Source: Micromonospora sp. HK10
GTDB taxonomy: Bacteria; Actinomycetota; Actinomycetes; Mycobacteriales; Micromonosporaceae
Direction: 5' to 3'
NCBI RefSeq assembly: GCF_000982955.1
Contig: NZ_KQ058830.1
Location: 1 to 64,000 of the forward strand
Length of the DNA: 64,000 nt
Shown: piece by piece, positions 1,170 to 2,644 of the stretch
How the letters are laid out: each line of letters begins with the position of its first letter
How positions within the stretch are numbered: the first letter of the stretch is position 1
Notes under the pieces: generated by a model
The model's input: only the letters and a program-made list of their open reading frames with translations
Database searches by the model: none
What the model was told of the DNA's origin: nothing
Position numbers and translations under genes: made by a program

Positions 1170-1469
1170 ATTGTTACCGGATTTTGGTGAGCCCGGTCAC
1201 CGCGGCCCGGAATCGGTCAATGCGACCCAGGCGGCGCGTTCGGGCGCCGTGATTGCGGGCCGGCCGGCACCGGATGTCCGGTTGTCGCCCGTCGGCTCCG
1301 ACCGGACCGCTCGTCCCATTGAGTGACGTCAGTGTCGAACTGTTCCGCTCAGCGTCATGATGCTCGACGTTTAGGCAGGTGGGGGCGCTTGGCATGGGGC
1401 GTACCTGTCGGTAATGTCGGCGCGTCCGGTGCGGTTTTCGATCGCGAGTGGCGACGCCGTGCCGACCCG
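1170..1469. other. Intergenic stretch without a gene
   Basis: No convincing reading frame. It probably contains the promoter of the riboswitch-controlled transcript that follows. A perfect 8-bp palindrome TGACGTCA occurs at 1324-1331, but nothing ties it to a regulator. Confidence 0.5.
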
Positions 1470-1600
1470 CCTAATCGTGCTCGCACGAACCGGGGACCCA
1501 CAGGCAACACCGGGGTGAATCCGCGCGCCACGGCCCGCGGTAGGGCGTACTTCCCGCCCGAATCCGTCAGCTAACCCGGTAGGCGGTCACGGAAGGAGTT
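1470..1600 (+). promoter_or_regulatory. c-di-AMP riboswitch (ydaO/yuaA class)
   Basis: The conserved blocks of the ydaO-type aptamer appear in order: ACCGGGGACCCACAGGCAAC at about 1489, CGGGGTGAATCC at about 1511, GCGGTAGGGCGTACTTCCCG at about 1538, CCCGAATCCGTCAGCTAAC at about 1557, and CGGTAGGCGGTCACGGAAGG at about 1577. In actinobacteria this class typically precedes genes for cell-wall hydrolases such as Rpf and NlpC/P60 proteins, and cyclic di-AMP binding lowers expression. Here the next gene encodes an exported C39-like peptidase about 210 nt downstream, so the leader is unusually long. The exact 5' boundary is approximate. Confidence 0.9.
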
Positions 1601-1609
1601 CCAATCCTC

Positions 1610-1672
1610 GTGCCCAACACCCCCCGATCCTCCCCGCGCCTCCACGGCGTCGCGGTGCCGCCGCTCGCCTGA
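1610..1672 (+). CDS. Possible 20-codon leader peptide downstream of the riboswitch
   Basis: A GTG 11 nt after the GGAAGGAG that closes the riboswitch opens a 20-residue frame, Pro/Ser/Arg-rich and ending in VAVPPLA, with a TGA stop. Nearly every codon ends in G or C, as in real genes of this genome. It may be a translated leader peptide that couples the riboswitch to the peptidase gene, or simply chance, since GC-rich DNA readily gives such frames. The absence of any other start near this strong Shine-Dalgarno sequence is the main argument for it. Confidence 0.25.
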   Translation: MPNTPRSSPRLHGVAVPPLA

Positions 1673-1701
1673 CCCGCGAGACCGTCCGGCCCACCCCCCA
1701 A

Positions 1702-1717
1702 GCCCGGCTCACCGGGC
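1702..1717 (+). terminator. GC-rich hairpin between riboswitch and peptidase gene
   Basis: GCCCGG-CTCA-CCGGGC forms a perfect 6-bp stem with a 4-nt loop, followed by a C-rich and not U-rich stretch. It may be part of a riboswitch expression platform or an attenuator. The stem is short and there is no T tract, so this is a tentative call. Confidence 0.25.
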
Positions 1718-1810
1718 GCCCCCCGTCCCGCGGCATCCCGCCCCGCAACGCGCGTGAGTTCCTCCGCGCGTCGGGCCGGCGCGTGCCGCTCCGGCTCCGT
1801 GGAGGAAACC

Positions 1811-2644
1811 TTGAAGCACCATGTGAAGCGTCAGCTGCGCCGGCTGGCGACCGAACGCCCGTACCAGATCATCGCCGGCTCGGCCGCCGCGCTGGTGCTG
1901 GCCGGCGGCACCGCCGCCCTCGCCACCACCGACGACGCCCCGGCCCGCCAGGAGCACCGCGCCGCGGTCGCCGAACTCGAGTCCCGGCTCGATGACGTCG
2001 CCACCCGCGGCGAGGCCCGGGTCGCCATCCCGTCCCCGTCCACCTCGCCGAGCACGTCGCCGTCGCCCTCGGCCCGGGCGAAGAGCGCGGCCCCGGCCGA
2101 CCCGGACCTCACCACCCGGGCGGCGAAGCCGAAGCCCCCGTCGACCAAGATCCTGAAGTACCGGTACCAGGCGCAGACCACCTACTGGAACTGCGGTCCG
2201 GCCGCGGTGCGCAACGCGCTCAGCGCGAGCGGCGTCGAGACCACCCAGGAGGCCCTGGCCGGTCCGCTGGGCACCACCGAGGGCGGCACCAACTCCGCCG
2301 AGGACACCACCCGCGGCTTGAACCAGATGGTCAAGGGCAACCCGTACCGGACCCACATGTTCGGCGGCGCGGCGAGCCCCGCCGAGATGGACCAGCTCCA
2401 GGCGGACGTGGTCAAGGCCGTCACCGACGGTCGGGGCGTGGTGGTCAACGTGGCCGGCGACGCCGTCGACACCGACGGCGGCTGGCACTCGTTCCCCGGC
2501 GGCCACTACGTCGCGGTGATCGGCTACCGCAATGACGGCCGCACCGTGCGGATCGCCGACTCGGCGAACCCGGCGCTGCCCGAGTACTGGCTGAGCACGA
2601 TCGACCTGGCGAACTGGGCGGCCAGCCGGGGCTACTCGGCCTGA
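1811..2644 (+). CDS. Exported C39-like cysteine peptidase under riboswitch control
   Basis: A 277-residue protein. A basic N-terminus precedes a hydrophobic segment (about residues 19-38), which acts as a signal peptide or anchor. A Ser/Thr/Pro-rich linker (73-90) follows, then a peptidase C39-like domain. The catalytic triad is visible: Cys128 in YWNCGPAA, His232 in GGHYVAVIGY and Asp250 in RIADSA. The family cleaves peptides, probably outside the cell; the substrate is unknown. I chose the TTG because GGAGG lies 5 nt upstream; an in-frame GTG four codons earlier lacks a site. The c-di-AMP riboswitch upstream suggests a cell-wall or osmotic-stress role. A strong hairpin follows the stop codon. 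Confidence 0.85.
   Translation: MKHHVKRQLRRLATERPYQIIAGSAAALVLAGGTAALATTDDAPARQEHRAAVAELESRLDDVATRGEARVAIPSPSTSPSTSPSPSARAKSAAPADPDLTTRAAKPKPPSTKILKYRYQAQTTYWNCGPAAVRNALSASGVETTQEALAGPLGTTEGGTNSAEDTTRGLNQMVKGNPYRTHMFGGAASPAEMDQLQADVVKAVTDGRGVVVNVAGDAVDTDGGWHSFPGGHYVAVIGYRNDGRTVRIADSANPALPEYWLSTIDLANWAASRGYSA

Follow-up and report, generated by a model that had tools for sequence, protein, structure and literature searches.

When 120 loci are compared, the picture that emerges is of a c-di-AMP riboswitch that directly targets a 20-codon reading frame and reaches its real target, a peptidase gene, through the unmasking of a remote ribosome-binding site. Riboswitches are usually pictured as controlling the adjacent gene. 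The riboswitch described here lies in a stretch of 64,000 nucleotides from Micromonospora sp. HK10 (hereafter, the window), which is part of a 6.9 Mb draft genome, and we consider it rather likely that it acts on a peptidase gene via a translated leader frame, the translation of which probably exposes the start site of the peptidase gene. By computation, we identified the aptamer, a conserved leader frame, a conserved complementarity between this leader and the ribosome-binding region of the peptidase gene (SD2), and a predicted opening of SD2 when the leader is held open.

The elements of the locus are listed in Table 1. The aptamer, called clear in an earlier note on this DNA, matched the covariance model of RF00379 over its full length and above the gathering score (87.6 bits versus 38; E 4.4e-19), and the coordinates given in that note were correct. 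As it had described, a GTG-started frame of 20 codons (1610–1672) stands right behind the purine-rich aptamer end, 11 nt after AGGAG of GGAAGGAG, and a 6-bp GC hairpin, GCCCGG-CTCA-CCGGGC, is located at 1702–1717; the distance from the aptamer end to the gene, estimated there as approximately 210 nt, was measured as 210 nt to TTG 1811. The principal element, absent from that note, is CCTCCACGG (1639–1647) in the leader, which in the window is the exact complement of CCGTGGAGG (1797–1805).

Table 1. Elements of the riboswitch–leader–peptidase locus in the window
Feature	Position	Strand	Remark
c-di-AMP (ydaO-type) riboswitch aptamer	1458..1600	+	RF00379, 87.6 bits, full model 1-134
CUUCC in the last loop of the aptamer, proposed to form a pseudoknot with GGAAG of SD1 (1591-1595)	1550..1554	+	5 Watson-Crick pairs
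SD1 GGAAGGAG, aptamer 3' end and putative leader Shine-Dalgarno	1591..1598	+	invariant in 48/48 aligned loci
Leader ORF (uORF), 20 codons, GTG start, TGA stop	1610..1672	+	frame kept in 118/120 loci
Proposed anti-SD CCUCCACGG, within codons for recurring residues L-H-G	1639..1647	+	exact complement of 1797-1805
GCGGU, inner helix 5' arm, partner 1785-1789	1652..1656	+	86.4% of cells paired in A1
Conserved 6-bp GC hairpin without U tract	1702..1717	+	102/118 loci; 93.3% of cells paired
GCCGC, inner helix 3' arm	1785..1789	+	alignment A1 pairing
SD2 region CCGUGGAGG of peptidase gene, proposed masking by anti-SD	1797..1805	+	CCGTGGAGG in 101/120 loci
Peptidase_C39_2 gene, 277 aa, TTG start, predicted exported	1811..2644	+	PF13529

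The TTG start of the peptidase gene is situated behind GGAGG (1801–1805), and its 277 aa product belongs to Peptidase_C39_2 (PF13529; 62.9 bits versus a cut-off of 24). On our reading, the peptidase is exported, as its N-terminal hydrophobic stretch is typical of export; a search by sequence at E 0.1 returned no relative of solved structure. A homologue (E 0.001 or better) was detected in all 121 genomes of the genus searched, with weak matches only in G009 and G052. These 121 genomes were taken as Micromonospora on the basis of the named loci: among 10 named loci with a peptidase relative, eight are from Micromonospora, one from Phytohabitans and one from a Micromonosporaceae MAG. Peptidase loci were mapped by tblastn and nhmmer and the best loci were taken; 125 carried both the aptamer and the peptidase, and the removal of five duplicates left 120 distinct loci. 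L002 (same place as L006), L068, and three loci having the peptidase with no aptamer match (L032, L044 and L045) were left out of the counts, and the locus set excludes the weak homologues of G009 and G052 as well as second copies in G034, G044 and G090. The homologue in L032 (G090) is 73% identical and has no aptamer match upstream; this genome contains another copy.

At the aptamer, CUUCC of the last loop and GGAAG of the 3' tail can form the loop–tail pairing expected of RF00379, which we take to be the pseudoknot of the solved ydaO crystal structures. Among 34 riboswitches of the class, at least five Watson–Crick pairs between the last loop and the 3' tail were detected in 29. The mean number of pairs was 5.5 for a riboswitch's own loop and tail versus 4.39 for crossed loci, and none of 10000 permutations reached the former value; the count of riboswitches with at least five pairs was reached by four permutations and that with at least six pairs by 107. 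Since the loops resemble each other, and likewise the tails, 59% of the crossed combinations also have five pairs, while shuffled loops gave on average 7 of 34. A cruder, earlier score was weaker, with own pairing exceeding the mean of the crossed combinations in 21 of 34 riboswitches and 6 of 5000 permutations as high. In the printed sequence of the T. tengcongensis ydaO RNA, a loop CUCCUUCG and a tail CGAAGGAG can be read by eye (PMC5393176), and a review places ydaO among the switches that hide a ribosome-binding site via docking (PMC10907184).

A long ORF immediately followed the aptamer tail in 26 of 29 class-level loci, each taken from one of the 29 highest-scoring genomes among 52 with a match. 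Frames were counted as long if they had at least 85 codons and a start within 17 nt of the tail; those of L182 and L187 continue past the end of the available sequence. For the other three, L173 and L192 have an ATG at a similar position, skipped by the SD filter of the script, and L169 has short frames only after the tail. These results suggest that the aptamer 3' end is a ribosome-binding site, and the covariation of the loop with a ribosome-binding tail would offer a simple reason why switches of this class could control translation and need no terminator. In the source genome, the other four riboswitches (L001, L003, L004 and L005) likewise have their start codon at, or at most approximately 11 nt from, the aptamer end. 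One of their targets is an NlpC/P60 protein (NLPC_P60) and one a transglycosylase-like protein (Rpf-type; Transglycosylas) with LysM; the remaining two are proteins without a Pfam match that look secreted by eye. The peptidase is unlike all of these, in agreement with the earlier note, which called its target class less common than Rpf or NlpC/P60.

We then analysed the leader frame. A frame of 12–36 codons was present at the leader position in 118 of the 120 distinct loci, the exceptions being L109 and L132, and a start codon just after SD1 was found in all 120 (GTG in 115, ATG in three and TTG in two). The leader motif CTYCACGG was detected in 103 loci; L132 is among the 17 without it. The distance from the start codon to this motif was 27, 30, 33 or 36 nt, always a multiple of three, in 101 of the 103 loci, with L031 and L109 out of frame (26 or 31 nt). 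Between the motif and the gene, 33 different spacings were seen, and the three residues modulo 3 were represented by 42, 31 and 30 loci. A quick tree built from the peptidase genes gave 15 changes of leader length, of which only two altered the phase, versus 43 phase-changing events among 70 changes of spacer length (Fisher p 0.0011). With 50 disjoint pairs from a single genus, synonymous changes accounted for 123 of 346 codon changes in the leader (0.355, versus a null of 0.295 and reached by 13 of 2000 draws). The frame is thus strongly kept and the peptide weakly. The combination of a start codon, an SD and a conserved frame is that expected of a translated regulatory uORF, and selection appears to act mainly on the in-frame reading of the leader, not on peptide identity.

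The complementarity between the leader and SD2 was examined by conservation and by folding. Of the 120 loci, 101 have CCGTGGAGG at the gene and nine others have CTGTGGAGG; in seven of these nine, the leader has CTYCACGG, so that a G-U pair is possible. The CCGT part of the SD2 region is not required for ribosome binding, and CCGT stands before GGAGG in 6 of 211 occurrences on both strands of the window, the SD2 site included. Based on the RNA ensembles of 119 loci (L132 omitted), SD2 paired with the leader with a mean probability of 0.89, at 0.5 or above in 108 loci and below 0.5 in 11. The median cost of opening SD2 was 9.5 kcal/mol in the free RNA, 5.6 with the leader held open, as a ribosome would do, and 9.3 with a control block held open; covering the leader reduced the cost by over 2 kcal/mol in 80 of 119 loci, and covering the control block did so in 13 of 117. 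Even with the leader covered, a residual opening cost of about 5.6 kcal/mol is left. In the window, the values were 10.2 (free), 4.4 (leader covered) and 7.3 (control block covered), and the control block therefore has some effect in the window itself.

In alignment A1 of 48 diverse loci, 96.5% of the cells of the anti-SD helix were paired, and sliding the partners by 1–3 columns lowered the pairing of the whole three-helix structure from 93% to 42–50%. Within the genus, no compensatory double changes were found in the anti-SD:SD2 helix (0 of 9 pairs), and the SD2 variants of L019, L020 and L055 are uncompensated. When the 3' letters were shuffled among loci, 92.8% were paired compared with 93.0% in the real alignment, a value reached by 128 of 500 shuffles, and the covariation score was reached by 33 of 500; the shuffles between loci match the real pairing because both arms hardly vary, and each arm could be held separately, by conservation of SD2 and by conservation of the leader. 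After shuffling of the leader, SD2 still paired at 0.5 or above in 104 of 288 draws (real leaders, 22 of 24). The background pairing of GC-rich sequence is thus not small, and pairing probability alone was therefore not taken as proof. The fold of 1580–1830 as a single sequence was excluded as evidence, since shuffles fold comparably (z -1.04; 35 of 200 fold at least as well). A further hairpin, CGCGCG-TGAGTTCCTC-CGCGCG at 1749–1770, has a pyrimidine-rich loop and recurs in nearer relatives, and the CCUC it contains might serve as another anti-SD.

Three loci represent natural variants of the leader. The spacer between the aptamer and the gene is 200–292 nt long in 117 of 120 loci, the outliers being L132 (9 nt), L109 (65 nt) and L130 (138 nt). 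L132 (G080) has an aptamer of 87.5 bits and no leader; the GTG behind SD1, which elsewhere opens the leader, is here the start codon of the peptidase. In L109 (G059; aptamer, 88.0 bits), the leader frame is fused in frame into the peptidase, and its spacer retains CCTCCACG-GCCCT-CGTGGAGG. In L130 (G079), the spacer is shortened, with the leader, the motif and SD2 retained. Despite their large deletions, both L109 and L130 have kept CCTCCACGG and GTGGAGG, and the probability of SD2–leader pairing is 1.0 in both. Taken together, L132, L109 and L130 support the view that SD1 is a functional start site and that the anti-SD has been retained.

Matches were obtained in 68 genomes of the family; among the matches listed, we analysed the 23 peptidase loci that belong to genera other than Micromonospora (L143–L165) and found the aptamer in 18. 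All 18 have a frame of 22–46 codons after the tail, frames of this kind being common in GC-rich DNA, and in 12 of them SD2 pairs with the short frame at 0.5 or above. In L154 and L160, the site is GGAGAA and the predicted leader partner contains UUCUCC (L154) or UUCCUCC (L160), suggesting that the pairing was kept with changed letters between genera. Since leaders occur in other genera, L132 presumably reflects loss of the leader and not primitive absence.

In another family, a c-di-AMP riboswitch was also observed upstream of a gene for a CHAP-domain protein (L169, minus strand, approximately 1520–1240), with a 29-codon frame behind the tail. Among the 25 homologous loci returned, the aptamer was detected in eight, including L195 (same place as L169); the aptamer profile is biased to Micromonospora, and misses are thus possible. 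A long ORF beginning with MD starts directly in L204, L206, L207 and L216, other-looking ORFs start directly in L214 and L215, and none does in L213. The leader of L169 looks isolated because the riboswitches of its homologues mostly start the ORF directly, and L169 was dropped as a second case of a relay.

From the comparison of loci, the following two steps can be proposed. In the first, the purine-rich aptamer end would serve both as the 3' strand of the pseudoknot and as the Shine–Dalgarno sequence of the leader, and because of this double role, the ligand-bound aptamer would hide SD1 and stop leader translation. In the second, the leader codons CUC CAC GGC would carry the anti-SD CCUCCACGG, which may pair with CCGUGGAGG over approximately 150 nt. 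At low c-di-AMP, SD1 would be free, ribosomes on the leader would hold the anti-SD off SD2 and the peptidase would be made; at high c-di-AMP, the pseudoknot would form over SD1, the leader would be silent, SD2 would be masked and the peptidase would be off. As the leader stop lies 138 nt upstream of the gene start in the window, the helix might close again once each ribosome has passed. Both the response to the ligand and its direction, with high c-di-AMP as the OFF state, are suggested by analogy with relatives. The earlier note had suggested a two-step control of an exported C39-like peptidase: the preserved frame, the anti-SD and L132 make this the best-supported reading, while leader translation, the c-di-AMP response and its direction are what we infer.

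The same leader could also act through Rho. An untranslated C-rich leader would then load Rho and transcription would end, leader translation would protect against this, and the anti-SD would be secondary. Over the 120 loci, the initial 60 nt of the leader average 47% C versus 27% G (55% C in the window), and Rho-dependent ends have been reported in the uORF-containing Mbox leader of M. tuberculosis (PMC12810186). However, the spacer behind the leader is equally rich in C (48%), so that the leader is not special for Rho; polarity by Rho leaves the conserved CCGTGGAGG and its complement unexplained; and a Rho-independent action is stated for the S. coelicolor c-di-AMP riboswitch (PMC9960051). 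We regard this explanation as unlikely.

A purely structural switch, in which SD1 would be an anti-anti-SD, the riboswitch would refold onto SD2 directly and leader translation would be irrelevant, appears quite unlikely. Judging from the sequence, GGAG of SD1 is able to pair with CUCC of the anti-SD, a scheme of anti-anti-SD and anti-SD has been put forward for the Mbox of M. tuberculosis (PMC12810186), and in L031 the anti-SD is kept though out of frame. Such a switch is at odds, however, with the preservation of the frame, both in 101 of 103 loci and in 13 of 15 length changes, and with L132, where the same start site begins the peptidase itself.

It is improbable that the riboswitch controls a leader peptide with an activity of its own, whether in stalling, in sensing or as a small protein. 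The residues LHG..VP recur in the leader peptides across the genus, and there is the synonymous excess described above, but amino-acid selection is weak (0.355 versus 0.295) and the leader sequence differs between genera. RNA pairing already explains the recurring residues, as these are encoded by the codons that make up the anti-SD and the inner helix, and a mechanism driven by the peptide was ranked low because selection at the peptide level is weak.

With respect to termination, a 6-bp GC hairpin of the type seen in the window is located somewhere in the spacer of 102 of the 118 loci with a leader, and L130 is without it. In the window, the hairpin is followed by GCCCCCC with no T run, and a terminator scan of 1100–2000 detected no intrinsic terminator in the spacer. 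Attenuation at an intrinsic terminator, for which a GC hairpin and a U run are expected, was thus rejected. The hairpin is conserved and not a canonical terminator, and no evidence for a role as the switching element was found. An ordinary riboswitch with transcription attenuation, in which the short frame and the complementarity would be incidental to a GC-rich leader, is very improbable: GC-rich DNA often contains short ORFs and fortuitous pairing, premature transcript termination with c-di-AMP is reported for Streptomyces rpfA (PMC10117811), and the missing terminator does not exclude attenuation since the rpfA switch is said to lack a canonical one (PMC9960051), but the spacer has no terminator-like site, and conservation across the 120 loci extends to both the frame and the complementarity.

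The proposed relay through a translated leader can be compared with several known systems. The c-di-AMP switch of C. glutamicum nlpC is an OFF switch, likely translational, and resembles the present one in its aptamer class, the lack of a canonical terminator and a target of the cell-wall peptidase type; for nlpC, CUCC of the riboswitch is proposed to pair with GGAG of the ribosome-binding site of the gene (PMC9960051). Here, in contrast, the site at the aptamer end would serve a 20-codon leader, and the gene lies 210 nt further on, with its own site predicted to be masked. For Streptomyces, the accounts diverge between premature termination (PMC10117811) and blocking of the ribosome-binding site, the latter as cited for S. 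coelicolor (PMC8079986).

The closest arrangement, with an almost identical order of elements, is that of the Mbox of M. tuberculosis pe20, where the aptamer end carries SD1 and is followed by a short frame, and an anti-SD pairs with a second SD further downstream (PMC12810186); the aptamer-end SD, the anti-SD and the second SD of such a relay were found here by conservation and prediction, not by covariation. The Mbox of pe20 differs in its ligand, in the poor conservation of uORF1 and in the controlled second frame, which is a conserved small protein, and Rho-dependent termination is shown there (PMC12810186), whereas base composition alone was examined here. The B12 riboswitch of M. tuberculosis likewise works through a uORF, uPPE2, whose translation the downstream gene needs, and is coupled to it by an AUGA overlap of stop and start (PMC11260477). 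The link proposed here is instead the anti-SD inside the leader, and no overlapping stop and start was found, the leader stop lying 138 nt before the gene. In PMC8079986, the passages on the ydaO riboswitch and on leader peptides treat the two as separate matters, and a literature search of limited coverage returned no description of a c-di-AMP riboswitch acting via a uORF. Relays from a riboswitch to a uORF are thus known for B12 and Mg in M. tuberculosis, and the c-di-AMP version appears to be new within the literature searched.

The relay would also account for the long spacer, which otherwise resembles an unexplained leader, and L132, L109 and L130 offer ready-made natural variants in which the leader is missing, fused or shortened. 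If the proposal is true, c-di-AMP would join B12 and Mg (PMC11260477, PMC12810186) as a riboswitch class that works through a uORF, outside mycobacteria. We put forward more tentatively, as a possibility short of an expectation, that an obligatory translated leader, selected for its frame and not its peptide, relays c-di-AMP to an exported peptidase across genera of one actinobacterial family, Micromonosporaceae judging from the named members. Because the gene would need both low c-di-AMP and active leader translation, such a leader may constitute a two-input gate that joins cell-wall and osmotic signalling to the state of the ribosome.
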